Below are positions 34,266-63,850 of a DNA stretch of 64,000 nucleotides, in pieces. How positions within the stretch are numbered: the first letter of the stretch is position 1; every line of letters starts with the position of its first letter. The notes under the pieces are model-generated. The model ran no database searches and had not been told where the DNA came from. It worked only from the letters and a program-made list of their open reading frames with translations. The DNA comes from Gemmatimonadota bacterium (GTDB lineage: Bacteria > Gemmatimonadota > Gemmatimonadetes > Gemmatimonadales > Gemmatimonadaceae). A program made the position numbers and the translations under genes. The stretch lies in assembly GCA_027307165.1 (NCBI GenBank), contig DAHUXM010000004.1:186001-250000 (forward strand), given 5' to 3'.

Positions 34266-35606
34266 TTATAGCGCCGTAGCCGCTGGGCCGGCGCGCGTGG
34301 TGAAGAAATCCGATCGGTCTGCGCGTTCGGGGAACGCCATATGATAGCGCTGTATCCATTCGCGCCGAAAATCCTCGACGGACGATGAATCGACCAGTGC
34401 CCACACACTTCCGCCGAAACCTGCCCCAAACGCCGACGCGGCGACGGCGCCTATCGCGCGAGCACGACGCACCAGCGCGACAGTCTCCGGAATCTGATTC
34501 TCCAGCCCGCGCTCCGCACCGCGCTGAGATTCAGCCACCTGACTGCCAAACGCAGCGACGTCTCCACGAGCGAGCGCGTCTGCCGCTGCAGGAATGATCT
34601 CGTTCGCCTCGGTATCGAACTGGTCGAATCTTCGTAGTAGCGACTCCGGCGCATAAGCCGCGTCGGTAGTTGTGCGAAGCACTTCCCGGATCTGCATACG
34701 GGCATCCGGCGACGACGCGATGGCCGCGCCCATCGACACGTCAGTCCGGCCAGTCGCTCGGTTCCACGATTCGAGTCCCACGCTCAGGCGGCGTGATACG
34801 CGATTGTAAAGCTCCAGCGCAGAGCCGGTCTTCTCAGCGAGTACGCCGCTCGCCGCGATCACGAATGTAAGATCGTTCGGCACAGCGATCGCGCGCTCGA
34901 ATCTCACCGGACAGAACGAATACTGTACCAGAGCGTTCGGTCGTGCGCAGAGAATCGCCGTCTGATCCTCGCTCCCACCGAACGTTCCGACCCCTGCACG
35001 ACCGTGCAGTGATTTGAAATCGAGTCCATTCTCAACGCACCCAAGGTAGCCGGCCAGGTCTTCCGGCGTCTGAATGCTGTCGCGATACTCCTGTCGCGCA
35101 GGCAGATCGTTGATTGCGGAGAGCGCCAGGAAGAACGCGACAACGAGAGCGCTCGAGCTGCTCACACCGGCAGCGGGCGGTAGATCGCTCGTGAATGCGA
35201 TGTCCGCGCCACGCATCTCACCGGGAAAGTTCATCGCGATGCGGCGCGCAACGGTGATCGCGTAGTTGGACCAGTGCCCGGGCGTCGACTCGACATCGGG
35301 CGAAAGTTCCAACTCCGCGACGTCGCCAGAGCGTGCGTCGAGTATGCGCACAGTGCTCGCAGTGCTCGTGGACGCTGCATGCCCCGGCCGTGCGCTGGCT
35401 ACGATGCAGATTCCGCGTTCCACGGCACACAACAGACTGCGGCCGCCGCCGTAATCGGTGTGCTTGCCCAGAACCTCGATTCGTCCCGGCACCCAGAAGG
35501 CCACCGGATTGTCGGCAGGGGCTGGCACATCACCGCGGAGCCGTGCGAGGTCACGCGCGAGCTGCGCGATGCGTCGGGCCTTGACCTCTGATTCCGCGAT
35601 ACTCAT
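34266..35606 (-). CDS. galK: GHMP-family galactokinase-like sugar kinase
   Basis: A 446-residue cytoplasmic kinase that transfers phosphate from ATP to C1 of galactose or a related sugar. The motifs are PGRIEVLGKHTDYGGG (residues 40-55), the ATP loop LPPAAGVSSSSAL, and FGAGFGGSVWAL near the C-terminus. The canonical GEHTDY becomes GKHTDY, with Lys48 in place of Glu, so the exact sugar specificity is uncertain; galactose is favoured by neighbouring galactosidases. It lies 32 bases after the symporter-nucleotidyltransferase gene and is co-directional with it. No galT or galE is present in this window. Confidence 0.82.
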   Translation of the reverse strand: MSIAESEVKARRIAQLARDLARLRGDVPAPADNPVAFWVPGRIEVLGKHTDYGGGRSLLCAVERGICIVASARPGHAASTSTASTVRILDARSGDVAELELSPDVESTPGHWSNYAITVARRIAMNFPGEMRGADIAFTSDLPPAAGVSSSSALVVAFFLALSAINDLPARQEYRDSIQTPEDLAGYLGCVENGLDFKSLHGRAGVGTFGGSEDQTAILCARPNALVQYSFCPVRFERAIAVPNDLTFVIAASGVLAEKTGSALELYNRVSRRLSVGLESWNRATGRTDVSMGAAIASSPDARMQIREVLRTTTDAAYAPESLLRRFDQFDTEANEIIPAAADALARGDVAAFGSQVAESQRGAERGLENQIPETVALVRRARAIGAVAASAFGAGFGGSVWALVDSSSVEDFRREWIQRYHMAFPERADRSDFFTTRAGPAATAL

Positions 35607-35638: not shown

Positions 35639-38254
35639 TCAGAGTGATACCTCAGTCCCCGAGAGCAGCGCCGCGACGCGCGGGATATCCGCTCGTCTGG
35701 AGAGGTCGAGCACAGCTTCGTTCACTGGAATGACCTTGAAGCGCATCCCGAGAATGTCGATTGCATACTGTACCGCGAGCGGAAGCTCCAGCTCGCCGCG
35801 CGGCGACGGTTGCACGTCTCTGCATGCACGGAAGAACTGGGACGTGAGGCGCCAGCAATTCATGCTCACGTCGACGTCGTCGCCCAGCGCAGCGAGCGAT
35901 GCTGCGTCTGGCTTCTCGGATATTTTGCGTAGCGTGCCATCCGGCGCGACGTCGAGCAAGGCAAATGCCGCGACGCGCTCGGCGGGAATGTTGCCGCGCA
36001 ACAGCCCCGCGTGGGAGAACCCGAGCGTTGCCGGTCCATTGGCAAGGCGGAGACGCGTGAGCGGAGCAGACGGGTAGTAGTTATCCGAATTCAGAACGAC
36101 AAACGGCTCGCCCGCAGTGAACTCCTCGGCGGCCAGCACAGCGTCGGCGGTACCGATCGCAGCGGACTGAACGGCGAACGAGATGCGCAGTCGTTTCGGG
36201 ATGGCGGTGTTGGTGTAGTAGCTCTCCATCTCCGCATGATCCGGCGCGACGACGATGCAGACGTCGGTAAACCCGGCGTCGGCGAGCGAGCTCAGCACGT
36301 AATCAAGGAAGGGCCGGCCGATGGGAATCATCCCCTTGACGCCGGACTCGGCGGCTGCGGCCTGGGCCGGATCGAGGGCGGCGCTGGCGTCGGCTTCGCG
36401 CATGCGCTTGCCAAGACCGCGGGCCAGAATCACAGCCTTGGTGCACGACCGGTTAGCGGCAATCGCAGATGTGTCGTCGCTGCGCACCGGCTCGTCCGCC
36501 GACCAGATGCGTCGCACGACCTGCATGAGAACAACACCGCTTACGATGAACGCCACAAACCATATCGACGCCTGGAACGTACGGCCGTAGATGATGCTGC
36601 CGGTTCCGAACAGGCCTGCGTAAACGAACATGACACCGGACGTCCAGCCGAGCAGCATCTGTGGCAGACTGTCAGGCGAGGCAGCTATTTTGGACTCCGC
36701 GCGAATCGCCTTCCATCCCGGGCCGGCGGGACGCGTGAGCTCGTAGAAGCGAAGCAGCGTCGCGTGATCGGCAGGGCTCGTGAACACGGTGACGGAAACC
36801 CAGACCACGGTAGTTACAGCAACGGTAACGAGAAGCGGCATCGGCTCCGGGGCCGCGTGACCCATCTTCTCAGCCACGAAGAATCCAATCGCGACGATGA
36901 ACGACGATGCCATCGCCGATATCTCGCTCCAGGCATTTATGCGCCACCAGAACCAGCGAAGCAGATAGATGAGTCCCGTTCCGGCGCCGACCGACAGCAG
37001 CAACTGAAATGCGTCACTGGCGGTCGATAGAAACAGAGTGAATGCACCCGCGGCAATCATCAGGACAGCAGTGAGCGAACGCGAGATCCATAGATAGTGA
37101 CGCTCGCTCTTTCCCGGCGCGAGAAAGCGCTGGTAGAAATCGATCACCAGATAGGATGATCCCCAGTTGAGATGCGTTTCCATGGTCGATCTGTACGCCG
37201 CGAACAGCGCGGCGATGATCAGTCCCTTCATTCCGACCGGCAGCAACGTGAGCATCGCCGGATAGGCGAGATCGTTGCCGATGAGCTTCGGATCGACGTT
37301 TGGCAATGCACGGTGAATGTCGCCAAGCGTCGGGAAGACCAGCATGGAACAGAGCGCGACGATTATCCAAGGCCAGGGGCGCAAAGCGTAGTTCGCAACG
37401 TTGAACCAGAGGGTCGCGCCGAGAGCGTGACGCTCGTTCCTGGATGCGAGGATGCGCTGCGCGACGTAGCTACCGCCCCCTGGCTCCGAACCCGGGTACC
37501 AGACCGACCACCATTGGATTGTGAGCGGGATGACGAGAACGGTGAGAGTGAGCGAAGTGTCGTTGAAATCCGGAAGGAGCGACAGCGTCTTGGGGTCGAT
37601 CTTCGAGAGCATTCCGGCGAGGCCGCCGACGGCCGGCTGATCCAGCGAGACATACGCGGCAGCGATCACGCCGATCATCGCGAGCGCGAACTGAACCATG
37701 TCGGTCGCGAGTACACCCCACAGGCCCGATATCGAGGCAAATAGAACGCACGCCGTTCCGGCGATGACGATCGTTTCGAGACGGCCCCAGCCGAGCATCA
37801 CGTTTGCGATCTTGACGGCGGCGAGCGTTACCGTCGACATGATCATGATGTTGAAGAAGAAGCCGAGGTACACAGCCCGGAATCCGCGCACGAGCGCAGC
37901 GGGGCGGCCGGAGTAGCGCAGCTCGTAGAACTCGAGATCGGTGAGAACGCCTGAGCGACGCCACAGCTGAGCGTAGAAGAAGACCGTGGCCATTCCCGTG
38001 AGCAGGAATGCCCACCAAACCCAGTTGTAGGAGACGCCGTGCGAGCGGACGAAGTCCGTTACCAGGTTCGGCGTGTCCGTGCTGAACGTCGTCGCCACCA
38101 TCGACGTTCCGACCAGCCACCACGGCGCCGACTGGCCGGATGTAAAGAACTCCGCGACGCTCGACTGCGAGCGGCGGATGTAGAACAATGCCGGCAGATA
38201 GCAGAGAAAGAGGCTTACCGCGACGATCACCCAATCAAGCGACGTCAGCTGCAT
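35639..38254 (-). CDS. Na+/solute symporter fused to sugar nucleotidyltransferase
   Basis: An 871-residue two-domain protein in one uninterrupted frame. Residues 1 to about 595 form an SSS-family (SLC5/PutP-like) transporter with about 14 membrane helices, including the GLIIAALFAAYRSTMETHLNWGSSY stretch near helix 8-9. Residues 605-871 form a cytoplasmic NTP-transferase domain with AVILARGLGKRM, KGMIPIGRPFLDYVL, VLNSDNYYP and ISEKPD, the signatures of sugar-1-phosphate nucleotidyltransferases. The linker between them is about ten residues. With the galactokinase-like gene 32 bases downstream, import, phosphorylation and nucleotidyl transfer may be coupled. The sugar is inferred from the neighbours. 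Confidence 0.87.
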   Translation of the reverse strand: MQLTSLDWVIVAVSLFLCYLPALFYIRRSQSSVAEFFTSGQSAPWWLVGTSMVATTFSTDTPNLVTDFVRSHGVSYNWVWWAFLLTGMATVFFYAQLWRRSGVLTDLEFYELRYSGRPAALVRGFRAVYLGFFFNIMIMSTVTLAAVKIANVMLGWGRLETIVIAGTACVLFASISGLWGVLATDMVQFALAMIGVIAAAYVSLDQPAVGGLAGMLSKIDPKTLSLLPDFNDTSLTLTVLVIPLTIQWWSVWYPGSEPGGGSYVAQRILASRNERHALGATLWFNVANYALRPWPWIIVALCSMLVFPTLGDIHRALPNVDPKLIGNDLAYPAMLTLLPVGMKGLIIAALFAAYRSTMETHLNWGSSYLVIDFYQRFLAPGKSERHYLWISRSLTAVLMIAAGAFTLFLSTASDAFQLLLSVGAGTGLIYLLRWFWWRINAWSEISAMASSFIVAIGFFVAEKMGHAAPEPMPLLVTVAVTTVVWVSVTVFTSPADHATLLRFYELTRPAGPGWKAIRAESKIAASPDSLPQMLLGWTSGVMFVYAGLFGTGSIIYGRTFQASIWFVAFIVSGVVLMQVVRRIWSADEPVRSDDTSAIAANRSCTKAVILARGLGKRMREADASAALDPAQAAAAESGVKGMIPIGRPFLDYVLSSLADAGFTDVCIVVAPDHAEMESYYTNTAIPKRLRISFAVQSAAIGTADAVLAAEEFTAGEPFVVLNSDNYYPSAPLTRLRLANGPATLGFSHAGLLRGNIPAERVAAFALLDVAPDGTLRKISEKPDAASLAALGDDVDVSMNCWRLTSQFFRACRDVQPSPRGELELPLAVQYAIDILGMRFKVIPVNEAVLDLSRRADIPRVAALLSGTEVSL

Positions 38255-38410: not shown

Positions 38411-40513
38411 CTACACAGCGATCATTTCGAGTGTCAGCACCTCGAACGGTTCCAGTCGGACCTTGCGCTCTTCGCCGGCGCGAAAACGAATCGGGGCCTT
38501 TCCGTGATACTGCGCCCACGGACTCCTGGCAGAATACTGGCGCGGCGCCGAGTGCGGAAGCTCGAACAAGCGCTCGGGATCGATCGCGATGTTCTGTGCG
38601 ACGTTGCTCGGATTGCGGAGCGTGAGAATTCCCGTGCGAGGCGACCACGACGCCCAGCCATAGGGCTCGAGTCGTTGCGGATCACCACCCACCCAGTGCG
38701 TGTCGACCAGAGTCTGAGCGTTGTTGCGGGACCACTTTGCGCATTCGGCGATCGTATCCCAGTTCGCCTGTGAGAGCAGCGAAGGGGTGATGTACATCTC
38801 CTGCAGCTGAGTCCCCGTGCCGAAGTAGTCGCGAACTTCGGATGTGAAGTCGTTGCCCGGATCGGTCATCAGATTGTGCGCCTGCCTGGCATAGATCATT
38901 CCATGCAGCATCAACGAATTGATCGGGAAGAGGGCGCCTGCACGGACGACGTGCTCGTACGTATCGGCGTCGCGATACGTGATCCACCGCTGTCTGCTCG
39001 TGCCGATTCCCGCGAAGTCGTGGTCGTCTCCGCCGCGCCAGATCGAATCGGCGTAGCGCAGCCAGAACGGTGACGGATACGTGCCGGTCGTGAGGTTCAC
39101 GTACAGATCCGGCTTCTCGGCGCGCAGTTCGCCAATGAGATGGATCGCTGCGTCAAAGTCGCTGTCGAATGGACTGCCGGGATAGGTGCTCGCATAGTTC
39201 CCCGTTCCGTCGAACTTGAACTGATTCACGCCGTACTTCCGGATCATGTCGATGCATGTATCGCGGAAGTGCTTGTAGTAGACGGGACCGGAAAGCGCGA
39301 ACCCGTCCTTGTTGGTCTCGTAGCCCTGCGCCGTTCCGTACTCGATGCGTTCCTTGTGCGGCTGTCCGTATCCGCCCCACGGCGACATCCAGACTCCGGG
39401 CGCGGCGCCGTATTTGTGAGTTGCAGCTTCTACGTTGGTGAATCCGTTGGGGAATCCCGAATTGAAGTGCCACAATGTCTTCGAGTCGTCCCAGCCGTCG
39501 TCGAAGAGAAACGAATCGAGCGTCACGCCACGCTTCTCGTGAAGCTCCGTTCCGAATGCCGCTATGGCGCCGAGTGCATCGGCCTCGGTGTACTTGTTGA
39601 AGTACCCGATGTCATACCATGAGTTGTAGTGCAGAAAAGTGCGATACGGATGGGCACGCTCCCGCTCGACGTACTTGAGAAAATCCCGTCGCAGTTGACC
39701 CGGGTGCGTGACGCCGACGACAGAGCTGAAGTCGATGGCGGTGCCGGGCCGGAGCGGCAACGTGCGTGACATCCGGCAACGCACGCGGTCGCCATCCACT
39801 GCGTTGTTGGCGAGAGGATGCTCGAATGCGAAGTACGCGTCTCCAACGACGATCGGCGTGCCGGGTACGGTTCCGGGCGCCATGGCGTTGCGCGCGTTGA
39901 AGTCGAGCAGGGCAATCTCGTGCACCGGTACCTCTCCACCGAGCGCGCGCAACGTGATTTCCTGGCGAACGTAGCTCGATCCATCGCGCAGTATTCCACG
40001 CCACACCGCTTCGATACGGCCGGCCGGGTCCTGAAGCGTCATCGTCACCTGATGGCCCGCGAGCCGCTCGACCATGCGGGACGCGCTGGCATTCGGGGAC
40101 AGTACTTCTGTTCGCGGCGCGGATGTGATGCGCATCTCGCTCGCCTGGATCGTGGACTTGTCCGCGAGCGTCAGGGTGAATGCCTGTGCGGATACGGGGA
40201 GCGTCGCGTTATTGAGCACGTCGGTCAGCCGAACCGGACGAAACGAGCCGCCGGCGGTGGTCCAGATCGCAGTAATGGCATCATTACCGAGTGTGAAATC
40301 ATCTGCCGACACGGCGGCTCGACTCGCGAGCGGTGCGCCGGCTCCGCCGAGCAGGCTGAGTCCTTCTGCGAAGCCAGTGGGGCCCAAGCCGAGCTGCAGC
40401 GCGCCGAGTCCGACGGCGATCCGGCCCGTGCGGTCGAGGAAATCGCGCCGACTGAGCCCGGAACGGGACGTGGGTGGGGGCGATGAATTGGAACGATCCC
40501 GGCTATCCGCCAC
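38411..40513 (-). CDS. Tat-exported clan-D-like glycoside hydrolase
   Basis: A 700-residue protein. A GTG at 40513 is the preferred start: AAGGAG lies nine bases upstream, and the twin-arginine signal (SRRDFLDRTGRIAVGLGAL) then sits close to the N-terminus. The catalytic part carries YNSWYD, FLFDDGWDD, KFDGTGN and GGDDHDF, which look like the (W)NSW, DDGW and KFDG elements of GH27/GH36-type alpha-galactosidases. Upstream is a beta-sandwich domain. It probably acts on galactosides or N-acetylgalactosaminides in the periplasm. The family assignment is tentative; similar proteins are sometimes misnamed 'enterotoxin'. It is divergent from the GH35 gene. Confidence 0.72.
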   Translation of the reverse strand: MADSRDRSNSSPPPTSRSGLSRRDFLDRTGRIAVGLGALQLGLGPTGFAEGLSLLGGAGAPLASRAAVSADDFTLGNDAITAIWTTAGGSFRPVRLTDVLNNATLPVSAQAFTLTLADKSTIQASEMRITSAPRTEVLSPNASASRMVERLAGHQVTMTLQDPAGRIEAVWRGILRDGSSYVRQEITLRALGGEVPVHEIALLDFNARNAMAPGTVPGTPIVVGDAYFAFEHPLANNAVDGDRVRCRMSRTLPLRPGTAIDFSSVVGVTHPGQLRRDFLKYVERERAHPYRTFLHYNSWYDIGYFNKYTEADALGAIAAFGTELHEKRGVTLDSFLFDDGWDDSKTLWHFNSGFPNGFTNVEAATHKYGAAPGVWMSPWGGYGQPHKERIEYGTAQGYETNKDGFALSGPVYYKHFRDTCIDMIRKYGVNQFKFDGTGNYASTYPGSPFDSDFDAAIHLIGELRAEKPDLYVNLTTGTYPSPFWLRYADSIWRGGDDHDFAGIGTSRQRWITYRDADTYEHVVRAGALFPINSLMLHGMIYARQAHNLMTDPGNDFTSEVRDYFGTGTQLQEMYITPSLLSQANWDTIAECAKWSRNNAQTLVDTHWVGGDPQRLEPYGWASWSPRTGILTLRNPSNVAQNIAIDPERLFELPHSAPRQYSARSPWAQYHGKAPIRFRAGEERKVRLEPFEVLTLEMIAV

Positions 40514-40674
40514 AGGTCCGTGCTCCTTATATATGCGTGTTGCGAGCGGATCGGAATCGATCGCCGTGGTGGCGAGATTATCGCCTGGGTGGGCGCCGGT
40601 CAAGGACAGGCAGCACCTTATTCGTGCCTCTGGCCGGTCGCAGACGGCAGCGCAAATTCTCCAGGATGAATCAC

Positions 40675-42546
40675 ATGCGACTATCTGACGCCTTTGGACG
40701 TTTCTGGATCGTGATGGCGTGCCTCGTCGGAATGGCGCAGCCGTCCGTAGCTCAGAAACCAGCCACGCATTCGTTCCAGATCGCGAAGGGCGCGTTTCTG
40801 CTCGACGGAAAGCCGCTCCAGATCATATCGGGCGAGTTGCACTATGCACGCATTCCTCGCGAGTACTGGCGCCATCGCCTCAGGATGGCAAGGGCGATGG
40901 GTCTCAACACCATCGCCACCTACGTGTTCTGGAACTATCACGAAGTGCGGCCCGGCGTGTTCGATTTTCACACCGGGAATCGCGACCTCGGCGAGTTCAT
41001 CAGGATCGCGCAGGAGGAAGGCTTGTGGGTGATTCTGCGTCCGGGACCGTACGTCTGCGCCGAATGGGACTTCGGAGGATTGCCATCGTATCTGCTCAAG
41101 ACGCCGGCGGTGGCTGTACGCAGCAACGATCCTCGCTACATGAAAGCCGCGCGACGGTACATCGACGCGATGGCGAAGGAGATACGGCCATTACTGGTGA
41201 CGCACGGGGGCCCGATTCTCATGGTGCAGGTAGAGAACGAGTACGGCTCATTCGGCTCGGACTCCAGCTACAAGGAAGCGACTCGCAGAATGCTGATTCA
41301 CGCCGGCATCGATGTGCCACTGTTCACAGCCGATGGTGACTGGCTGTTTCAGAAGGGCGGAATTCCTGGCGTGTTCGCGGCTGCGAACGGTGAGATGAAT
41401 TACGACAGTCTCACCAAGCGAGTCGACGCATTCAACAAGGGCACCGGTCCGTACATGGTTGCGGAGTTGTATCCCGGATGGCTCACGCACTGGGCGGAGC
41501 CGTTTCCCGTCACGCCTGTCGACAGTTTTCTGCCCGCGTACGACAGTCTGCTGAAGCGGGGGGTGAGCATCAATCTGTACATGTTTCACGGCGGCACCAA
41601 CTTCGGTTTTACATCCGGCGCCAACTATACAAAGGCGATGCCGATCGAGCCGAGTATGACGAGTTATGATTACGACGCCCCGCTGTCCGAGGCTGGATGG
41701 GCGACTCCCAAGTATTACGCGTTGCGCGACGTGATACGGCGGAACGTGTCATACGCGATTCCGGATGTGCCGGATGCATTGCCTGTGATCGCTGTGCCGC
41801 CAGTTCATCTCACTGCTGTGACTGATCTCTTCGGCATCGTCGATCGTATCACACCGGTGAATTCCAGTCAGCCGATGTCGTTCGAGGATCTCGATCAGTC
41901 CAGTGGATACGTGCTGTATCGCCACCGATCTGCGAGTGCAATGCACGCCGTTCTGAGCGTGCCCGGGCTGCGCGATTACGCAGCAGTATTCGTGGATGGG
42001 CGTCGCGTTGCGACACTGGATCGCCGCACGAAGAATTTCTCCTGCGCCGTGGATATTCCTGCGGGTGGCCGGCTGGACATTCTGGTCGAGAACATGGGGC
42101 GGATCAACTATGGCTCGGCACTCGTGAGTGATCGGAAGGGGATAGTTCAGCCCGTGACGATTGCGAGTGCGGAGATCACCGGCTGGTCGATGTATCGGCT
42201 ACCGTTCGCCAGCGTACCAAGCGGGGGAACTACCAAACGAGTGGTGAGTGCAGCAGCGGGAACGCCGACTTTGTATAGGGGCAGCTTCACGCTCGATCGC
42301 ACTGGCGACACGTTTCTCGACATGCGGGCGTGGAACAAGGGAATCGTTTTTGTGAACGGCATCAACATCGGCAGATACTGGAATTCCGGTCCGCAGCAGA
42401 CTTTGTACCTTCCGGGTGCATGGCTCCGGCGTGGGCGAAACGACGTCGTTGTGTTCGAGCTGAACGGTCACAATGGCGCGTCTGAAATCGCCGGGCTGAC
42501 GCGGCCAATTCTCGCGCAGCTGAACGCGGAATCACATCCTCAATAG
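40675..42546 (+). CDS. Exported GH35 beta-galactosidase
   Basis: A 623-residue enzyme releasing terminal beta-linked galactose. The ATG at 40675 has AGGA eight bases upstream and starts a signal peptide ending QPSVAQ; an ATG at 40666 is the alternative. The GH35 barrel shows ISGELHYARIPREYWRHRL, VLRPGPYVCAEWDFGGLPSYL, MVQVENEYGSF with acid/base Glu189, and VAELYPGW with nucleophile Glu264, followed by FHGGTNFGFTSG. Beta-sandwich domains fill the C-terminal 270 residues. It is divergent from the clan-D-like glycosidase, and both should supply sugar to the adjacent symporter. Confidence 0.95.
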   Translation: MRLSDAFGRFWIVMACLVGMAQPSVAQKPATHSFQIAKGAFLLDGKPLQIISGELHYARIPREYWRHRLRMARAMGLNTIATYVFWNYHEVRPGVFDFHTGNRDLGEFIRIAQEEGLWVILRPGPYVCAEWDFGGLPSYLLKTPAVAVRSNDPRYMKAARRYIDAMAKEIRPLLVTHGGPILMVQVENEYGSFGSDSSYKEATRRMLIHAGIDVPLFTADGDWLFQKGGIPGVFAAANGEMNYDSLTKRVDAFNKGTGPYMVAELYPGWLTHWAEPFPVTPVDSFLPAYDSLLKRGVSINLYMFHGGTNFGFTSGANYTKAMPIEPSMTSYDYDAPLSEAGWATPKYYALRDVIRRNVSYAIPDVPDALPVIAVPPVHLTAVTDLFGIVDRITPVNSSQPMSFEDLDQSSGYVLYRHRSASAMHAVLSVPGLRDYAAVFVDGRRVATLDRRTKNFSCAVDIPAGGRLDILVENMGRINYGSALVSDRKGIVQPVTIASAEITGWSMYRLPFASVPSGGTTKRVVSAAAGTPTLYRGSFTLDRTGDTFLDMRAWNKGIVFVNGINIGRYWNSGPQQTLYLPGAWLRRGRNDVVVFELNGHNGASEIAGLTRPILAQLNAESHPQ

Positions 42547-42570: not shown

Positions 42571-42599
42571 TTGCGCAATCCAAAATGGGATACTATATC
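42571..42599 (+). promoter_or_regulatory. Candidate promoter of the susCD unit
   Basis: TTGCGC (42571-42576) and TATATC (42594-42599) are separated by 17 bases. The -10 falls inside the GGATA-N3-TATCC palindrome at 42588-42600, so a bound regulator would block it. The SusC start codon is 100 bases downstream. Confidence 0.45.
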
Positions 42600-42600
42600 C
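42588..42600. promoter_or_regulatory. Candidate GntR operator upstream of susC
   Basis: The 13-bp palindrome GGATA-CTA-TATCC lies in the 153-base gap ahead of the SusC gene and is matched by GGATA-TTG-TATCC at 50749-50761, ahead of the gntR gene. Both are AT-rich islands in GC-rich DNA, and both sit about 100 bases before a start codon. This is consistent with a shared operator for the GntR-family regulator encoded at 50859. Confidence 0.7.
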
Positions 42601-42699
42601 TGCCAGTCCTCGGCGGAGGGCGCCGGAGTCCCGGGTGGGCGGCGCCCGTCTGCTTTCACATTTCTGCCGCACTTTGCTGCGTGCGGTCGGAGAGGAGTC

Positions 42700-45600
42700 A
42701 TGAGAGCTACGGTATGGTTGGTGTTGCCGCTCTGTATCGGCGCGGAGATCGCGCCCCAGCGCGCAGCCGCGCAGCAAACTGGAACCACGATCGTCGGCGT
42801 GGTCACGACAGACAAGGGCGTGCCGCTTCAGGCTGCGGAAGTCGTGGTACAGACGATGGGGCTCGGCGCCGCGACGCGCGCTGACGGTCATTACACCATA
42901 ACCGTGTCCGCCGCCCGATCGCTCGGGCAGAAGGTCACGCTCACTGCGCGACTCATCGGGTTCGCACCGAAATCGGTCCAGATCACACTCAACCCCGGGA
43001 CTGTAACGCAGAACTTCAGTCTTGCGAGCAATCCACTGCGTCTTGGCGAGGTGGTCGTCACCGGCGCCGGCACGAGCAGCACGCGCGAGAAGCTGGGCAA
43101 CGTGATCAACTCCGTCGACTCGACAGCCATTGCCAAGAGCAACGAGTCGAATGTGGTCAACGCACTTGCAGCCAAGGCGCCGGGTGTGTCGGTGGTATCC
43201 GAATCGGGCGTTCCCGGATCGTCGGCGTACATCCGCATTCGCGGTATCAAGTCGCTATCGGGTGACGGACAGCCGCTGTTCGTGGTCGATGGAGTGCCGA
43301 TCGACAACACGACCAACGTCAATGGCAGCAACCTCACGGGCTCGAACACGCCGAACCGTGCGTCGGATATCAACCCCGACGACATCGCGTCGGTCGACAT
43401 ACTCAAGGGCGCCGCAGCGGCCGCCATCTACGGCGCGCGCGCATCCAACGGTGTCGTGCTCATCACAACGAAATCGGGACAGGCAGGCCCGACGCGTTAC
43501 ACGCTGAATTCGAGCTATTCCGTGGACGACGTCAGCCACAGCATCCCGTTGCAGACCAAGTATGGCCAGGGCAGCAATGGCAACCCCGGTGCATGCTCGA
43601 CGCCAGACTGCTCCGCGGCGAGCGGTTCGTGGGGGCCGGCGCTCTCGGGAGTCCCAACGTACGATCACTTCAGCGAGCTGTTCCACACCGGTCATACGAC
43701 GAACAACCACATCACGATTTCGGGCGGAAACGAGCGCACCACGTTCTTCGCATCCGGCGGGCGCGATGCGCAGAACGGCGTGATCATCGGCCCGAACAAT
43801 TACTACGACAGAACCGACGTGCGCCTCAAGGCGACGCACCAGGTCTTCGACAACCTCAAGATTGGCGGCAACATCTCGTTCGCGGACGACCGCGGTGCGT
43901 CGATCCTGCGCGGCGGGTCGGTGTCCGGTCTGATGCTGGGCGCATTGCGGACGCCGCCGGACTTCAACCAGTTCCCATATCTCTCGCCCACGACGGGGCT
44001 GCAGCGCTCATATCGCTTTCCCGACCCATCGCCGGCATCGCTCACGCGGTCGCGCGGTTATGACAACCCGCTGTTCGCCGTGTACGAGAATCCGAGCACG
44101 GAAGAGACGAACCGAACGATCGCCAATCTCAATGCCGACTGGCAACCGAAGAGCTGGCTGCGCCTGGCGGAGAATCTGGGCGGCGACTACTTCGGCGACA
44201 CTCAGCTCACGGGCGAGTCGTTCACCGCGAGCGAATCACCACTCGGTCTCGTCAGACGCGCAGATCTGATGCACCTCCAGATCGACCAGAATCTCATCGC
44301 AACCGCTACGCACACCTTCAATTCCAACGTGAGCGGCACGTTGACTGTTGGGAACAACGTCAACAGCCGGCGGGGACGCGAAGTGGATGCGACCGGCAAC
44401 GGGCTGATCGCACCGTCACCGTTCTCGCTGAACAACACGGTGACGCAGCTCGCGACGGAATATGACTACGTGATCCACGCACTGTCGTATTTCGGCGAGG
44501 CGACTGTCGATCTCTACAATCAGTTGTATCTCACCGGCGCCGTTCGAAACGACGGGTTCTCGACGTTCGGCGCAAGCAATCCGCGTGCGTCGTACCCCAA
44601 GGGGAGCCTCGCCTGGACGTTCACGAATGCACTGGGCAATACCGACCATCGCGGGCTTCTCAGCTATGGAAAGCTGCGCGCGTCGTACGGCGAGACGGGC
44701 AAGGAGCCGAACGTCTACTCCACCCTTTCGACACTCGGCCGAGCGATCTTCGGCAGCGGCTACACCGATCAACTGTCATCGACGCAGGGTGGCTACGGCG
44801 GTCTGGTCACCTCTGGCACACAGGGCAACAACAACCTCAGGCCCGAGCGCCAGAAGGAGTTCGAGACAGGTCTCGATGTTGGTCTGTTCAATCAGATGGC
44901 GGACGCGGGCATCACGTATTATCGCGACAACTCGACGGACGTCATCCTGAGTGTGCCGCGTCCATCGACGACGGGCTTCTCGGCGCAGCTTCTCAATGGA
45001 GCGGCGATCCTCAACCGCGGTTGGGAGGCGACACTGAACGTGCGGCCGATAACGACGCAGAAGCTGGCGTGGGAAATTGGTGGTCAGTGGGCGCAGAATG
45101 AAACTCGCGTTCTCAGCCTCAACGGTGCGACGTACATTGGCGCTGGTGGCGGAACGTTCTCCGAAGCACAGCCGTCAGCAACAGTCGGTGGAACATTCGC
45201 GTTCCGCGGGCTGGGCTACGTTCGCTGTGGCGTCACCAAGAGCACCAATCTGAAGGATCCCGCCGGTCATCCGGTAGACCTCGCGTCAGCGTGCGCGGGT
45301 GCGCCGCGAGGCGCGTTGTACATCGCAGCGTCCGGCTTCCCGGTGAACGATCCTGTGAATCGCGTAATCGGCGATCCCAATCCGCACTGGACCGGCAACG
45401 TGCACACGACCGTCCACTTCGGAAGCTGGGCGCTGTCGGCGCTGCTCGACCACAAGCAGGGTGGTATGGTCGCCAACATGACCAAGGGTGCACTCAACAA
45501 CTTCGGGACGTCCATTGAAACAGAGCAGCGCGACGTCACCCGCACCTTCGGAGTGGACTTCATGCCGGGAGCAACGGTGGGACCGGGCAAGGGCACTCCT

Positions 45601-45921
45601 GTTCAGATCGGGCAGTCATGGTACACGGGGCTCGGGAGCATCTACTCCGGAATTGGCGAGCCGTTCATGGAGGATGGCACGTACACCAAGCTGCGCGAGT
45701 TGTCGGTGACGTACTCGCTCACCGGCGCATTCGTGCGCCATGCCGGGTTCAGCAGCGCCGACCTTCGGATTTCCGGGCGCAATCTGCACACGTGGACGAA
45801 GTACTCGGGCATCGATCCCGAAACCAATCTCGCTGGAGCAGACGCGCTGGTGCAGGGCTATGACTTCTTCAACATGCCGCAGACGCGATCGTTCGTGTTT
45901 TCAGTCGCTCTGAACCGCTGA
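42700..45921 (+). CDS. SusC/RagA-family TonB-linked receptor
   Basis: A 1073-residue outer-membrane importer. The ATG at 42700 follows GGAGAGGAG and starts a signal peptide ending ...APQRAAAQ. A carboxypeptidase-regulatory-like domain comes next, then the plug with [25 protein letters not shown] and [28 protein letters not shown], all signatures of SusC proteins, then the barrel ending [10 protein letters not shown]. It works with the SusD lipoprotein encoded 19 bases downstream to move oligomers across the outer membrane. Context with the hydroxyproline genes suggests a peptide ligand (inference). Confidence 0.95.
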
Positions 45922-45940
45922 TCCCAAAGGAGATCCATCC

Positions 45941-47314
45941 GTGAAGCGATACATCAGGAGTGCGGCACTGGCAGCGGCGATTCCAGTCGTCGTTGCGAGC
46001 TGCGGCGACAACTATCTCAAGTGCGCCGACTGCATAACCAGTCCAAACGCGCCGACCGCAGCAACTTCCACGCAGCGTCTCGTCGCTGTGCAGGCGAAGC
46101 TCACACAGTTTCTCAACGGCAACCTGCCACGCGTGATATCCATGTGGATGCAGCAGATGGCGGGGACGCAGCTGCAGTATCAGGTGCAGGATCTGTACGT
46201 TCTGGACGGCGGAAGTGGCGACTTCAGCATGCCGTACACCGGCGGCGGTCTGATCGACATCCGCTCGATCGAGGCAAACTCGGCTGCGTCCGGGGACAAG
46301 ATATTTCTTGGCATAGCGCAGACGCTCAAGGCATGGGAGATTGGAACGCTCGCCGACGTCTGGGGCGACGTGCCGTACAGCCAGGCTGCCAAGGCCGATT
46401 CGTTCCCGACGCCAAAGTACGATCCGCAGCAGGTCGTGTACGACAGTGTGCTGGCAACGCTGGATCAGGCGATCGCGAATCTCAGTGCTGCTACGGGAGT
46501 GGGGCCGGGCGCTGCGGAGATCGTCTACAAGGGGAATCCAGCTCTCTGGTTGCAGCTTGCGCACACGCTCAAGGCCCGCTTCTATCTGCATCTGGCGGAG
46601 CGGGATCCGACCAACTATGCAAAGGCGCTGACCGAGGCCAATCTGGGCATCTCGAGCAACGCGGCTGACTACATCACCTACCAGACGAGCAACGCGAACG
46701 AGCAGAATGACTGGTATCAGTTCATGCTTACCGGAACGCGTACCGGCTTCATGCGCGCCGGCAAGTATCAGGTAGACCTGCTCAAGAGCATCGGTGATCC
46801 ACGGTTGGCCGAATATTACCAGATTGCGGCTGGCGCGACAGATTACATCGGCGCGTCGCCGGGACAGGGGCTCGCTGGAAACATGTCTACGATCAGCGCG
46901 AAGCGACTTGCGCCTGATTATCGCCAACCGCTCGTCACATACAACGAGAATCTGTTGATCAAGGCGGAGGCGTTGTTCCAGCTGGGTAACACTCAGGCAG
47001 CGCTCGATACGCTCAACCGTGAGCGTGCCGCATGGGCGACCGCGACACCGTGGCACTCGGCGTTGACGCTTCCGGCGATAGCGGGGCCTGCATCGCTCGC
47101 CAGCATCATGCAGGAGAAGTACATCACTCTGTTCCAGAACGTAGAGGCATGGAACGACTACAAGCGCACGTGCCTGCCAGCGCTCGTACCGGCGAATGGT
47201 GCGGCGTCGCTGCCTGGCCGAATGCTGTACACGAATTCCGAGCGTCAGACGAATCCGAACGTCCCTGCGGATCCGACGCTCAACTGGAACGATCCGCACG
47301 CGTGCGGCGCCTGA
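45941..47314 (+). CDS. SusD/RagB-like substrate-binding lipoprotein
   Basis: A 457-residue outer-membrane lipoprotein. It starts at GTG 45941, with AAAGGAG about eight bases upstream. The lipobox is VVVASC, with the acylated Cys at residue 21. The helical SusD pattern includes LAKTLKAWEIGTLADVWGDVPYSQA-type TPR helices (IAQTLKAWEIGTLADVWGDV), the ANYAKALTEANLGI-like helix, and the C-terminal IMQEKYITLFQNVEAWNDYKRT motif. It lies between SusC and the Asp-box protein. It should cap the SusC barrel and select the ligand. Confidence 0.93.
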   Translation: MKRYIRSAALAAAIPVVVASCGDNYLKCADCITSPNAPTAATSTQRLVAVQAKLTQFLNGNLPRVISMWMQQMAGTQLQYQVQDLYVLDGGSGDFSMPYTGGGLIDIRSIEANSAASGDKIFLGIAQTLKAWEIGTLADVWGDVPYSQAAKADSFPTPKYDPQQVVYDSVLATLDQAIANLSAATGVGPGAAEIVYKGNPALWLQLAHTLKARFYLHLAERDPTNYAKALTEANLGISSNAADYITYQTSNANEQNDWYQFMLTGTRTGFMRAGKYQVDLLKSIGDPRLAEYYQIAAGATDYIGASPGQGLAGNMSTISAKRLAPDYRQPLVTYNENLLIKAEALFQLGNTQAALDTLNRERAAWATATPWHSALTLPAIAGPASLASIMQEKYITLFQNVEAWNDYKRTCLPALVPANGAASLPGRMLYTNSERQTNPNVPADPTLNWNDPHACGA

Positions 47315-50858: not shown

Positions 50859-51629
50859 ATGGGTCGCACCCTCGGTTCATCCAACAAGGCCGTCAAGGCC
50901 GTCGGCAAGAGTTCGAACGAGACGAAGATGATGGTAGTGCCGATCACGCGCCAGACCGTCACGCACCAGGCGACGGAGGCGTTGCGCGAGAGGATCCTGC
51001 GCGGGGTTTACGCCGACGACACGCCGCTTCGACAGGACGCGCTTGCCGCCGAATTGGGCGTGAGTCGAATCCCGATTCGCGAAGCACTTCGTCAGCTGGA
51101 AGCAGAAGGACTCGTCGTATTCAATCCGCATCGCGGCGCGGTGGTTTCGTCGCTCTCCGTGGATGAGATCAACGAGCTGTTCGAGCTGCGCGCGCAGATC
51201 GAGGGTGACCTGGTCCGCCGCGCAATCATGCGGACAACGGTGGAAAGCATCTCCCGCGCCAAGGACATACTCAAGGCCTACGAGGCGGCGTTCCGCGCTG
51301 GTGAGGTCGCGGAGTGGGGCAAGTTGAACTGGGAATTCCACTCGACCCTCTATGCGGCCGCCGATCGCCCATTCACCATGGCGATCATTCAGCGATTGCA
51401 CCAGCAGAGCGATCGGTATCTGCGTATGCAACTGGTGCTCACGCACGGTGAATCGCGCGCGATCGACGAGCATCGCGCCATTCTTGCGGCCGTCGCGGCA
51501 CAGGATGTCAAGCAGGCTTGCTCGCTCATGCGGCAACACATACTCGGCGCCGGCCGTCAGCTCGTCAGGTACGTCAGTGCGGAGCGAGAGGCTGAAGAAG
51601 GGCGACCAACAAAGGAACGAAGATCATGA
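50859..51629 (+). CDS. GntR-family regulator, FCD (FadR) subfamily
   Basis: A 256-residue transcription factor. After a basic N-terminal tail (about 30 residues), the winged helix spans about 35-100, with RERILRGVYADDTPLRQDALAAELGVSRIPIREALRQLEAEGLV. A helical FCD ligand-binding domain follows (about 105-235), containing FELRAQIEGDLVRRA, NWEFHSTLYAAA and EHRAILAAVAAQD, whose Asp/His residues often bind metal and a carboxylate effector. It is the first gene of the hydroxyproline catabolic run and overlaps the aldehyde dehydrogenase start. It probably binds the palindromes at 42588 and 50749 and responds to a hydroxyproline pathway intermediate (inference). Confidence 0.93.
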   Translation: MGRTLGSSNKAVKAVGKSSNETKMMVVPITRQTVTHQATEALRERILRGVYADDTPLRQDALAAELGVSRIPIREALRQLEAEGLVVFNPHRGAVVSSLSVDEINELFELRAQIEGDLVRRAIMRTTVESISRAKDILKAYEAAFRAGEVAEWGKLNWEFHSTLYAAADRPFTMAIIQRLHQQSDRYLRMQLVLTHGESRAIDEHRAILAAVAAQDVKQACSLMRQHILGAGRQLVRYVSAEREAEEGRPTKERRS

Positions 51630-53080
51630 CAGGTAGTACTGCCAGACGACTGCAGCACTTCATCGATAATGGCTGGCGTGACAGCGAGACAGATGGATGG
51701 ATAGATGATGTAAACCCTTCGGACGTGCGCGACGTCATCGCACTCGTGCCGAAGGGTTCGACGAACGACGCGCATGCTGCGGCAAGTGCCGCTGCGCGGG
51801 CGTTCCCGGCGTGGCGCGCCCTCACGGGTCCCGCACGCGCCGAGCATCTTTACAAATGGGCCGCGGCGATCGGCGACCGGGCCGAAGAGCTGGCGCAGGT
51901 CATGGCGCGCGAGGTCGGAAAGCCGATCGGCGAGGCGCGGGGCGAGGTATCCCGCTGCGTTGTGATTCTGCGGTACTACGCCGGTGACGCGGTGCGCCAG
52001 ATCGGCGAAGTGATTCCAGCACAATCTCCAGGCGCCCTTCAATTCAGTCTGCGCGAGCCGCTCGGTGTGGTGGCGATGATCACGCCGTGGAATTTTCCAC
52101 TCGCGATTCCGCTATGGAAAGTCGCGCCTGCGCTCGCATTCGGTAACACCGTCGTACTCAAGCCAGCGGAGTCGTCGTCGTACCTCGCGGCGTTGCTTGC
52201 CGAGACTGCTTCTGCAGCTGGCATTCCTGCCGGCGTGTTCAACGTTCTGTTCGGTGCCGGCGCCACAGTTGGCGCGGCACTACTCGAGGCACCGGAAGTT
52301 CGCGCCGTCAGCTTCACGGGATCCGGCGCCGTTGGGGCACGCGTGGCTACGACCGCGGCGGCGCGCAATATACGGTATCAGACCGAGATGGGCGGCAAGA
52401 ACGTCGTCATCGTCATGCCGGATGCCGACATTGCAAAGGCTGCATCACTTACGGCGGCGGGCGCAATGCGCTACGCCGGCCAGAAGTGCACTGCAACGAG
52501 CAGGGTAGTCGTCGCCCGCAGCGTCGAGAATGAGTTTCTGAGCCAGCTTCGCTCGCAGGTCGAATCGCTTCCCATCGGCCCGGTCACGGACGCGAAGGCC
52601 GCAGTGGGTCCACTGATCAGTCGAGTGTCGCACGATTCGATAACCGAGGCGCTCAGGGATGCGAAGGCCGAGGCGCTGTTTTCGGTCCCCATACCGGGGT
52701 CTACCGAGTTCAGCAACGGCAACTTCTTTCCGCCGACAGTCGTGCGTGGAGGCGATCCGGATGGATTGCTCGCGCAGCGCGAACTGTTCGGTCCGGTACT
52801 GGCCGAATTCACCGCAGAGGACGCAGACCACGCAATCGAGCTGGCGAATCACACGTCCTATGGTCTGAGCGCATCGATCTTCACGCGCGATCTGACGACT
52901 GCGCTGGATTACATCAATCGCATTCACGTCGGCCTGGTGCGCGTGAATGGAGACACCACTGGTGTCGACCCGCATGCGCCCTTTGGCGGAATGAAGGGCT
53001 CGAGTTCCGGTAGTCGCGAGCAGGGACCTGCTGCGCGCGAGTTCTACACCGAGATCAAGACCGTACAGGTGAATCCGTGA
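51626..53080 (+). CDS. 2-oxoglutarate semialdehyde dehydrogenase
   Basis: A 484-residue NAD(P)-dependent aldehyde dehydrogenase. The catalytic Cys288 (GQKCTATSR) and Glu254 (QTEMGGKN) are present, as are the PWNFPLAIP and cofactor-binding FTGSGAVG motifs. In this gene set it should oxidise 2-oxoglutarate semialdehyde (2,5-dioxopentanoate) to 2-oxoglutarate, the last step of hydroxyproline breakdown; this role is inferred from the neighbours. The ATG overlaps the gntR stop (ATGA), and its own stop overlaps the GTG of the epimerase gene. Confidence 0.9.
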   Translation: MTGSTARRLQHFIDNGWRDSETDGWIDDVNPSDVRDVIALVPKGSTNDAHAAASAAARAFPAWRALTGPARAEHLYKWAAAIGDRAEELAQVMAREVGKPIGEARGEVSRCVVILRYYAGDAVRQIGEVIPAQSPGALQFSLREPLGVVAMITPWNFPLAIPLWKVAPALAFGNTVVLKPAESSSYLAALLAETASAAGIPAGVFNVLFGAGATVGAALLEAPEVRAVSFTGSGAVGARVATTAAARNIRYQTEMGGKNVVIVMPDADIAKAASLTAAGAMRYAGQKCTATSRVVVARSVENEFLSQLRSQVESLPIGPVTDAKAAVGPLISRVSHDSITEALRDAKAEALFSVPIPGSTEFSNGNFFPPTVVRGGDPDGLLAQRELFGPVLAEFTAEDADHAIELANHTSYGLSASIFTRDLTTALDYINRIHVGLVRVNGDTTGVDPHAPFGGMKGSSSGSREQGPAAREFYTEIKTVQVNP

Positions 53081-54084
53081 CAGACGGCACCGCCACCATG
53101 GAGTCGGGTGTGATGGCAGAAGAACCGACTGCGACCTTTCCCGCGAAGATTCACGTTGTCGATTCGCACACCGAGGGCGAGCCCACGCGCGTGGTGCTGG
53201 ATGGATGGCCACAGCCGCGCGGCGCTACGATGGCGGAACGGAGCGACGATATGCGCACGCACTTCGATCATCTGCGGCGTGCAGTGGTGTGCGAGCCGCG
53301 CGGCAACGACGCGATTGTCGGTGCGCTGCTGACGCCGCCCGTGAATCCGGATTCGACGACCGGTGTGATCTTCTTCAACAACGGAACGTATCTGGGGATG
53401 TGCGGGCATGGCGCGATCGGTGTCGTGCGCACGCTGCAGCACCTCGGCCGCGTGCAACCAGGCACAATCCGTCTGGACACGCCAGTCGGAACAGTGTCGG
53501 CCGAGCTGAGTGTCGATGGCAGCGTGACGATCGAGAACGTCCCGTCGTTCTGTCATGCGCGCAACGTCGAGGTTCAGGTTCCAGGCATTGGTCTCGTAGT
53601 TGGCGACGTCGCGTGGGGCGGCAACTGGTTCTTCATCACGCATAGCACGCCTATCCCGGTAGTCGCCTCGAACGCGAAGGAATTGACCCGCGTGACGCAG
53701 GCGATTCAGGATGCGATCAACGCCGCCGGCATCACCGGCGCGAACGGGGAGCCGATCGATCACATCGAGATCTCGGCGGCGCCCACGCGCGCCGATGCGG
53801 ATTGCAGGAACTTCGTGCTGTGCTCTGGCGGTGAATACGACCGCTCTCCGTGTGGCACCGGAACGTCCGCCAAGCTTGCCGTACTCTATGCCAAGGGCGA
53901 GATCACGCTCGGGACTCGGTGGCGCCAGGAGAGCATCAGCGGAAGCCTTTTCACGGGTTGGCTCACGACGAACGAGCGCGGTGAGCTGATTCCGCACATT
54001 CGCGGCACGGCTTACGTGACTGCGGAGGCGACGCTGCTATTCGACCCGACGGACCCGTTCCGCGGTGGAATTCCTTCGGCGTGA
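53077..54084 (+). CDS. 4-hydroxyproline 2-epimerase (proline racemase family)
   Basis: A 335-residue cofactor-independent epimerase. Both catalytic cysteines are present: Cys109 in GMCGHGAIG and Cys259 in SPCGTGTSA. This favours racemase/epimerase activity over the Cys/Thr dehydratase type. The reaction is trans-4-hydroxy-L-proline to cis-4-hydroxy-D-proline. Substrate choice is inferred from the surrounding dehydrogenase, deaminase and aldehyde dehydrogenase genes, which rule out a simple proline racemase role. It starts at a GTG overlapping the aldehyde dehydrogenase stop; a later ATG at residue 8 or 13 is possible. It corresponds to LhpA/HypRE in described pathways. Confidence 0.9.
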   Translation: MTDGTATMESGVMAEEPTATFPAKIHVVDSHTEGEPTRVVLDGWPQPRGATMAERSDDMRTHFDHLRRAVVCEPRGNDAIVGALLTPPVNPDSTTGVIFFNNGTYLGMCGHGAIGVVRTLQHLGRVQPGTIRLDTPVGTVSAELSVDGSVTIENVPSFCHARNVEVQVPGIGLVVGDVAWGGNWFFITHSTPIPVVASNAKELTRVTQAIQDAINAAGITGANGEPIDHIEISAAPTRADADCRNFVLCSGGEYDRSPCGTGTSAKLAVLYAKGEITLGTRWRQESISGSLFTGWLTTNERGELIPHIRGTAYVTAEATLLFDPTDPFRGGIPSA

Positions 54085-54121
54085 TCCGCACTGCATTGGT
54101 GCTGCACGTGGACGGGACACG

Positions 54122-55246
54122 GTGACTGCGCACCACGACGCTGTGGTTGTCGGCGCGGGGATCGTCGGTGCAGCGTGCGCTGAGGCGCTGTCCCGGTCGG
54201 GGATGAGTGTGCTCGTGCTGGACGCGAGCTTCGCCGGAAGCGGTACGACGGCGGCTGGCATGGGTCATCTCGTTGTGATGGATGACTCGCCTGCGCAGCT
54301 CGCTCTCACCGCGTATTCCGGACGGCTGTGGGCCGCACTGGCGCCAGAGCTGCCGCGTAACGTCGAGCATGAGGCGTGCGGCACCCTCTGGGTTGCCGAA
54401 GATGATGAGCAGCTCGAAGCAGTGCGCGCAAAACAAAGTGTCTATGCCGATAGCGGCGTCGCGACTGAGATACTGTCCCCAGCGCAGCTTGCCGAAGCCG
54501 AACCTCATCTGCGACCCGGGCTGGCTGGCGCCCTGCTCGTGCGCGGCGATGCGGTCATCTATCCGCCGAACGGTGCGCGTGCGCTGCTGCAGCGCGCGAT
54601 CACCAACGGGGCCAGCGTGCGGGAGGGCGTTCGTGTCAACGCAATCGGCGCGCGTGAAGTGATTGCCGGCAACGAACGGATCTCATGCGACTGTGTGATC
54701 AACGCAGCAGGTGCGCTGGCGCCGGAGCTCACTCCCGGCATTCCCATCGTACCACGCAAGGGGCATCTCGTCATCACCGACCGGTATCCGGGATTCTGCC
54801 GGCACCAGCTGGTCGAGCTTGGCTATCTGACGAGTGCTCACACAATGACGACGGAATCAGTTGCGTTCAACGTTCAGCCGCGGGCTACCGGCCAGATGTT
54901 GATCGGGTCATCGCGCGAGCTCGTCGGATGGGACGGATCGATCAATCGGTCCATCGTGCGCAGGATGCTCGATCGCGCACTCGACTTCATGCCGGGACTG
55001 GCGCTCGCATCGGCAATCCGGACGTGGACCGGCTTTCGTCCGACGACCCCGGACAAGCTTCCCCTCATCGGCTCATGGGACGAGATGCCGGGATTATGGA
55101 TCGCGGCCGGTCACGAGGGGTTGGGCATTACGACATCGGTTGGAACGGGACAGCTGCTTGCCGATCTCATCACTGGGCGCGCGCCCGCGATCGATCCAGC
55201 GCCATTCGCTCCGTCGCGAGTGCTCGCCGGCGTTGGAGAGCACTGA
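54122..55246 (+). CDS. D-hydroxyproline dehydrogenase, FAD (DAO-type) subunit
   Basis: A 374-residue FAD-dependent amine oxidoreductase of the D-amino-acid oxidase/GlyDH fold. The N-terminal dinucleotide motif is VVVGAGIVGAACA. Conserved C-terminal segments are IRTWTGFRPTTPDKLPLIG and AAGHEGLGITTSVGTG. A GTG at 54122 gives the natural start just before the Rossmann strand; an earlier GTG at 54065 would overlap the epimerase gene. It should oxidise cis-4-hydroxy-D-proline to 1-pyrroline-4-hydroxy-2-carboxylate, passing electrons through the next two gene products rather than to oxygen. The stop overlaps the following ATG (TGATG). Confidence 0.87.
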   Translation: MTAHHDAVVVGAGIVGAACAEALSRSGMSVLVLDASFAGSGTTAAGMGHLVVMDDSPAQLALTAYSGRLWAALAPELPRNVEHEACGTLWVAEDDEQLEAVRAKQSVYADSGVATEILSPAQLAEAEPHLRPGLAGALLVRGDAVIYPPNGARALLQRAITNGASVREGVRVNAIGAREVIAGNERISCDCVINAAGALAPELTPGIPIVPRKGHLVITDRYPGFCRHQLVELGYLTSAHTMTTESVAFNVQPRATGQMLIGSSRELVGWDGSINRSIVRRMLDRALDFMPGLALASAIRTWTGFRPTTPDKLPLIGSWDEMPGLWIAAGHEGLGITTSVGTGQLLADLITGRAPAIDPAPFAPSRVLAGVGEH

Positions 55247-55515
55247 TGGCAATCAACGGCGCCGCGGCGGAGCTGAACATCGTCGTTGACGACCAGCGCA
55301 TTCGTGTAGCTGCCGGCACGACAGTGGCTGCCGCGCTGTTCAATCTTGGAACCGCGGCTTTTCGTACATCGGTTTCAGGCGAGCCGCGCGGCCCGGTCTG
55401 TGGGATGGGCGTCTGCTTCGAGTGCAGAGTGACGATCGACAGCAGACCACATCAGCGTGCGTGTCTGATCGCTGTCGCTGACGGAATGCACATTCGCACG
55501 GCCACCGAAGCATGA
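55246..55515 (+). CDS. D-hydroxyproline dehydrogenase, [2Fe-2S] subunit
   Basis: An 89-residue ferredoxin-like protein. The four cysteines Cys52, Cys57, Cys60 and Cys73 (VCGMGVCFEC, then RACL) follow the CX4CX2CX12C plant-type [2Fe-2S] pattern. It should relay electrons between the two flavoprotein subunits. The ATG overlaps the stop of the FAD subunit, and its stop overlaps the next ATG, so the three subunits are tightly coupled. Small subunits of this kind are typical of three-component D-hydroxyproline or opine/octopine oxidase-type dehydrogenases. Confidence 0.9.
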   Translation: MAINGAAAELNIVVDDQRIRVAAGTTVAAALFNLGTAAFRTSVSGEPRGPVCGMGVCFECRVTIDSRPHQRACLIAVADGMHIRTATEA

Positions 55516-63434: not shown

Positions 63435-63850
63435 CGGCGAGCGCGTCGCCGTCGGCCGCCGTCCAAATGGAGCAGCTGGCAGGTCGCCATTGTCGCTATG
63501 GGGGGTCGAATGCCTTGCTTCGATCTCGCGTCGACCGGGGATTCTGTGAGCAGCCAAAATTTCCCTGTTCCCCGATTCAGAGCTCCGCCGACGTGGCTCG
63601 AGCCCATTTTTTTGCGCTATCAAAACCGAAAATGGGAGGTGCCGGTTCAACGCGCCTCACGAGGCTGTTTCATAGGGGAAACATACAGTCTTGCACGCAC
63701 GGCGCTCGACCATATCCGAGGTCAACGGCATGATAAACATATGATTATCAGTCTGGCGCGATACTGGCAGACATTCACTCGAACGGCAGTCCGGAATATG
63801 CCCTCTGCGGATGCAGCGGCGCATGTAACCACTATGGGAGATCAGCATAT
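63435..63850. other. Gene-free gap between copper protein and last lipoprotein gene
   Basis: This 416-base stretch shows no recognisable protein; the open frames in it look accidental. It contains the inverted repeat at 63731-63750 and an AT-rich segment (63725-63755), consistent with divergent promoters for the copper gene and the lipoprotein gene. No tRNA or terminator hairpin was seen. Confidence 0.5.
63731..63750. promoter_or_regulatory. Inverted repeat TGATAA-N8-TTATCA
   Basis: TGATAA (63731-63736) and TTATCA (63745-63750) are perfect inverted arms eight bases apart, in an AT-rich patch between divergent genes. It might be an operator. No other copy was seen in this window, so the binding protein cannot be named. 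Confidence 0.35.

Follow-up and report, generated by a model that had tools for sequence, protein, structure and literature searches.

The window analysed here, a 64,000-nucleotide stretch of a Gemmatimonadota genome, holds on its minus strand one open reading frame (35639-38254) in which 871 amino acids, uninterrupted by any stop codon, carry a transporter of the sodium/solute symporter (SSS) family followed by a sugar-1-phosphate nucleotidyltransferase (NT). A GHMP kinase gene and two glycosidase-like genes flank this fusion (Table 1). Both halves score above their Pfam cut-offs: the SSF profile (PF00474) matches residues 36-441 (E 1.5e-19, 70.6 bits vs a cut-off of 22.8) and the NTP_transferase profile (PF00483) matches residues 641-831 (E 5.5e-12, 46.2 bits vs 21.2), the latter domain being widened to about residues 606-860 by NCBIfam profiles. 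A first-pass annotation, made from the sequence alone, had described this continuous architecture, a kinase gene next to it, and the motifs LARGLGKRM, NSDN and SEKP; all of these hold, with the motifs lying in the NT domain at residues 610-618, 722-725 and 779-782.

Table 1. Fusion domains and flanking genes, with window coordinates and the evidence for each.
Feature	Coordinates	Strand	Evidence and remarks
SSS (SLC5/TC 2.A.21) transporter domain	36500..38254	-	residues 1-585; PF00474, vSGLT 2xq2, AF2/Foldseek
Linker	36443..36499	-	residues 586-604; pLDDT and junction comparison
Sugar-1-phosphate nucleotidyltransferase domain	35639..36442	-	residues 605-871 plus stop; PF00483, NCBIfam profiles, fold match
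GHMP sugar 1-kinase, 'GKH' subfamily	34266..35606	-	32 bp downstream of fusion; PF10509, PF00288, PF08544
Tat-signal GH36-like glycosidase	38411..40603	-	upstream of fusion; fold match only, weak model
GH35 beta-galactosidase-like gene	40474..42546	+	divergent; PF01301 E 3.7e-109

The AF2 model of the fusion (pLDDT 82) contains two folded domains, one a bundle like that of SGLT and the other compact and alpha/beta in fold, and within the linker, residues 588-598 fall below a pLDDT of 50. vSGLT (2xq2) matches the transporter half with an E of 8e-21, and Foldseek pairs the same half with SGLT2 (E 7e-19), SiaT (TMt 0.82) and vSGLT, all of which have the LeuT/SGLT fold; the NT half is paired with a UDP-glucose pyrophosphorylase (8b6d) and RmlA. 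The transporter domain has 15 predicted transmembrane helices. In the SSS family the N-terminus lies outside, and if this is taken to apply here, it places the basic loops on the inner side, and the C-terminus with its NT domain is predicted to be cytoplasmic. The NT domain has the full catalytic signature (GxGxRM...K, Q...GTA, SDN, EKP and a second Asp), with G613, G615, R617, K640, Q696, G701, T702, D724, E780, K781, P782 and D850 invariant in seven fused sequences. Its closest NCBIfam profile is Arch_glmU (69.6 bits), followed by AglF (67.9 bits); it reaches no equivalog cut-off among these profiles and stays well under that of MurU (28.1 bits vs 250). A separate NT product from an internal start in the linker seems less likely: GTG 590 is the only candidate near the junction, and no ribosome site is evident.

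The adjoining kinase belongs to the galactokinase/GalNAc-kinase superfamily and misses the galactokinase equivalog TIGR00131 (93.7 bits vs a cut-off of 226.65; protein P0002). All GHMP kinases of the cassette clade have GKH (GKHTDY), with a strictly conserved Lys where galactokinases have Glu (GEH), and the galactokinase-type kinases that adjoin GH109 or NT' genes in relatives keep GEH or GDH. Both types share EK[ST]G-like motifs and GTxGG..D[QH], which reads GVxGG in some cases, and these motifs are nearer to GALK2 than to the canonical GalK of locus L157. For one kinase of the Glu type, encoded in L065 with the same transporter and NT set, the closest PDB entry is that of human GalNAc kinase (2a2c, 198.8 bits vs 183 for galactokinase). 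The Glu of galactokinases presumably faces C6 of the sugar; we found nothing on the role of this Glu in the literature searched.

The galactosidases that the first-pass annotation had placed around the fusion are borne out in part. The GH35 beta-galactosidase assignment stands, with a true start that is probably later than 40474, and the second gene is GH36-like by fold only: Pfam and NCBIfam searches with its product gave no match and thus no place in the GH36 sequence family. Foldseek relates this protein to GH36 (4fnq, E 5.9e-18) and to FpGalactosaminidase (8x1b, E 1e-16) from an AF2 model (pLDDT 62, TM 0.26) that is too weak for inferring a substrate. An alignment of nine sequences shows its twin-arginine motif, SRRDFL. 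The gene adjoins the fusion in all fused loci with enough flank, in the position that GH109 occupies in relatives. As a constant partner of the cassette it was rejected; in other families it is often located elsewhere, and although its family is mostly confined to Gemmatimonadota, it also occurs in genomes G174, G169, G171, G165 and G149. Independently of the fusion, this Tat-exported family is possibly an undescribed glycosidase family. Elsewhere in the window, a TonB-dependent receptor with a plug domain and then a SusD-like protein (PF12771) are encoded next to the GH35 gene (42571-47314), a PUL-like layout outside Bacteroidota; consecutive genes for an aldehyde dehydrogenase, a proline racemase family protein, a DAO-type oxidase and an FAD oxidoreductase with a BFD domain (51626-56858) look like a hydroxyproline degradation cluster; and CopC and CopD domains (PF04234 and PF05425) share one frame at 61989-63650.

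The same fusion, present once in the source genome, is one stop-free reading frame in 11 genomes of the family Gemmatimonadaceae (L001-L011), at 60-99% identity. The genomes compared are mostly metagenome-assembled, and an assembly artefact had been named beforehand as what might undo the finding; because the one-frame form recurs in 11 genomes, we exclude this. A twelfth fusion, in the closely related genome G055 (L033:8001-9744 and L017), has a frameshift in the transporter half near residues 315-332, which points either to a sequencing error or to a pseudogene, and no further fusions were found among the 288 genomes of the order searched. In the majority of unfused relatives the transporter and NT genes are separate neighbours, and the linker of the fusion lies at the point where the transporter stops and the NT starts in these relatives. 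In three loci (L012, L014 and L032) the two are split by one in-frame stop codon, so loss of that stop would create the fusion.

On trees of the SSS transporter the fused genes form two clades, one with the window fusion and genera g1, g22, g15 and g5, the other with genomes G046 and G020, and the two groups persist after the nearest unfused sisters are added. Forcing the fused genes to one origin is rejected on the SSS domain (AU p=0.0005), which makes it seem that the fusion arose twice. On the NT domain alone a single origin is not rejected (p 0.078), so it is also possible that there was a single fusion whose transporter half was swapped afterwards. Whatever the sugar, the fusion could be without a function of its own, the product of neutral stop-codon loss between co-translated genes, and we consider this a serious alternative at somewhat less than even chances. 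The loci with a single stop at the junction fit it, as does the fact that joining importer to NT skips the kinase step; against it stand the two clades, the retention of the fusion across the stated range of identity, and the intact state of all catalytic residues.

To understand which sugar is handled, we examined the wider cassette of transporter, NT and GHMP kinase in relatives. In unfused cassettes the usual neighbour of the transporter is GH109 (PF21252; PDB 6t2b, E 2e-115, and 2ixa, E 9e-80), an alpha-N-acetylgalactosaminidase family. It is present in 78 of 148 genomes of the family and lies within 6 kb of a kinase of the window type in 66 of these 78; its co-occurrence with the NT has a Fisher p of 1.6e-8, a value not corrected for kinship. 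GH109 is absent from the window and from every fused genome. In other relatives with the same transporter, an NT and often GH109, the GHMP kinase is swapped for a homologue of the N-acetylhexosamine 1-kinase NahK (4ocu, E 1e-59). Loci L122, L123, L161, L091, L104, L054 and L055 have a parallel cassette of NahK-type kinase, distant NT and SSS transporter, often with GH109, which spans Gemmatimonadota, Planctomycetota and Bacteroidota. Among unfused transporters, those closest to that of the window (L159, L160 and L161, 76-78% identity) have two kinds of neighbourhood: in L159 and L160 the NT, the kinase and a GH20 hexosaminidase stand in a row beside the transporter, and in L161 its neighbours are GH109, NahK and NT'. 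More distant SSS relatives adjoin nagB, nagX (NagX-like) or GH20. The common denominator of these partners is N-acetylhexosamine, and GH109 together with the galacto-type kinases points to N-acetylgalactosamine (GalNAc).

We propose that this is probably a salvage cassette for GalNAc whose importer and uridylyltransferase have been fused. The sugar would be freed by an exported glycosidase, which is GH109 in relatives and probably the GH36-like enzyme in the window; the SSS domain would import GalNAc with sodium; the separate GHMP kinase would phosphorylate it at C1 to GalNAc-1-phosphate; the C-terminal domain, at the inner face of the membrane, would convert GalNAc-1-phosphate and UTP to UDP-GalNAc; and a GalE-like 4-epimerase, encoded elsewhere in the genome, would link UDP-GalNAc to UDP-GlcNAc. 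In this scheme we infer the sugar, the nucleotide, the cytoplasmic placement and the direction of flux, and no residue that would read the N-acetyl group was identified in the cassette proteins. The sequence of import, 1-kinase and pyrophosphorylase is that of the first-pass annotation and is kept.

The fusion itself couples the first and third steps, and the kinase of the second step stays a separate protein, so that activation at the import site requires an extra assumption. The kinase may dock on the complex, the fusion may provide membrane placement or a fixed stoichiometry, or it may be neutral. In a more ambitious version, which we regard as rather unlikely, importer and UDP-sugar synthase would work as a single unit in the membrane, with the GHMP kinase recruited between them, and the imported amino sugar would leave this unit as UDP-GalNAc; two separate origins would then reflect a benefit from channelling or from control of UDP-sugar by import.

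The substrate had originally been taken to be galactose, which the GHMP kinase would phosphorylate after import and the fused domain would convert to UDP-galactose without GalT, in the manner of an Isselbacher-type route. We consider this unlikely, although several observations favour it. As had been claimed, galT and galE are absent from the window; the check for galT, a member of the Leloir pathway (galK-galT-galE), elsewhere, using PF02744, extends its absence to the entire source genome (G000), where it is unlikely to have been missed by the assembly, given 98% completeness and other genomes as controls. The GHMP kinase is also the only galactokinase-like gene of this genome, so the cassette could serve galactose as well. 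A galE-like epimerase gene is found outside the window (C11:5697-6632; 4zrm and 2p5u, E below 1e-70), scoring 199 bits vs a galE cut-off of 262.3. The local glycosidases, GH36-like and GH35, are both compatible with galactose and in this respect argue against the GalNAc reading, and because the GH36-like enzyme replaces GH109 in the window, galactose keeps some claim as the substrate here. The Lys that the cassette kinases keep in place of Glu is a further point for which the GalNAc reading offers no account. However, the partners conserved across relatives (GH109, NahK, GH20, nagB and nagX) handle N-acetylhexosamines, those next to orthologous cassettes (GH109, NahK or GH20) are not galactosidases, and the kinase is far below the galactokinase cut-off. 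Nor is the idea of a GalT replacement well supported: the fusion carriers G046 and G020 keep galT, and the cassette NT is present in 10 of 22 galT-bearing genomes, so the cassette is not simply a GalT substitute.

Salvage of GlcNAc or another HexNAc to UDP-GlcNAc, by a shortcut like that of AmgK/MurU and with the sugar supplied by GH20-type hexosaminidases, seems improbable. GH20 and NahK would fit GlcNAc as well as GalNAc, GH20 lies beside the nearest unfused sisters, nagB and NagX-like genes adjoin the wider transporter relatives, and Arch_glmU is the profile closest to the NT. On the other hand, the most frequent partner, GH109, acts on alpha-linked GalNAc, galacto-configured sugars are the usual substrates of galactokinase-family kinases, and the MurU score is far short of its cut-off. 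Least likely of all is activation of a uronate or other C6-charged sugar such as galacturonate, with the kinase Lys that replaces the galactokinase Glu binding the carboxylate: the strict conservation of this Lys and the zebrafish glucuronokinase/pyrophosphorylase, which pairs kinase with pyrophosphorylase for glucuronate (PMC3938481), speak for it, but no uronate enzymes were seen among the conserved cassette neighbours, and the GH109, NahK and GH20 context does not suit it.

The GalNAc reading can be set against several known systems. Bifidobacterial NahK and the AmgK-MurU pair have in common with it the two steps from amino sugar to sugar-1-phosphate to UDP-sugar; they differ in having no transporter fusion and in their kinase, which is of the APH family. 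The zebrafish enzyme and FKP, like the fusion, combine salvage steps and an NTP-transferase domain in a single polypeptide, but there kinase and NT are joined, whereas in the window the transporter and the NT are joined and the kinase is free. To our knowledge, known SSS fusions are sensor kinases. The SLC5-STAC-histidine kinase transceptors CbrA and CrbS (PMC7096432, PMC7918813) combine an SSS transporter with signalling domains and so share with the window fusion a C-terminal cytoplasmic domain; theirs serves signalling, in contrast to the metabolic enzyme predicted here. The literature searched yielded no SSS transporter fused to such a nucleotidyltransferase. The fusion thus appears undescribed, although its domains and the kinase-uridylyltransferase logic are already known, and it is a compact system for asking whether uptake and activation can couple physically.

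The closest parallel is operon 1 of the BT4240-50 locus of Bacteroides thetaiotaomicron, in which a GalNAc 1-kinase (BT4240), needed for growth on GalNAc, is encoded with GH109 and an inner-membrane transporter (PMC11992087). We see in it an experimental precedent for the proposed GalNAc cassette. The shared logic is an exported alpha-GalNAcase, an importer and an anomeric kinase, and homologues of both GH109 and NahK occur among the SSS and NT relatives of the window; judged as a GH109-NahK cassette of the BT4240 type, the fused genomes lack GH109 and most unfused relatives have it. The window differs from the Bacteroides locus, which has an MFS transporter and no described uridylyltransferase, in the fusion of SSS transporter to uridylyltransferase, in its GHMP-type kinase and in the replacement of GH109. 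The distribution of the wider cassette suggests that many Gemmatimonadota and Acidobacteriota may salvage GalNAc via UDP-GalNAc, and the cassette NT could perform the uridylyltransferase step, which the account of the B. thetaiotaomicron GalNAc locus leaves undescribed.
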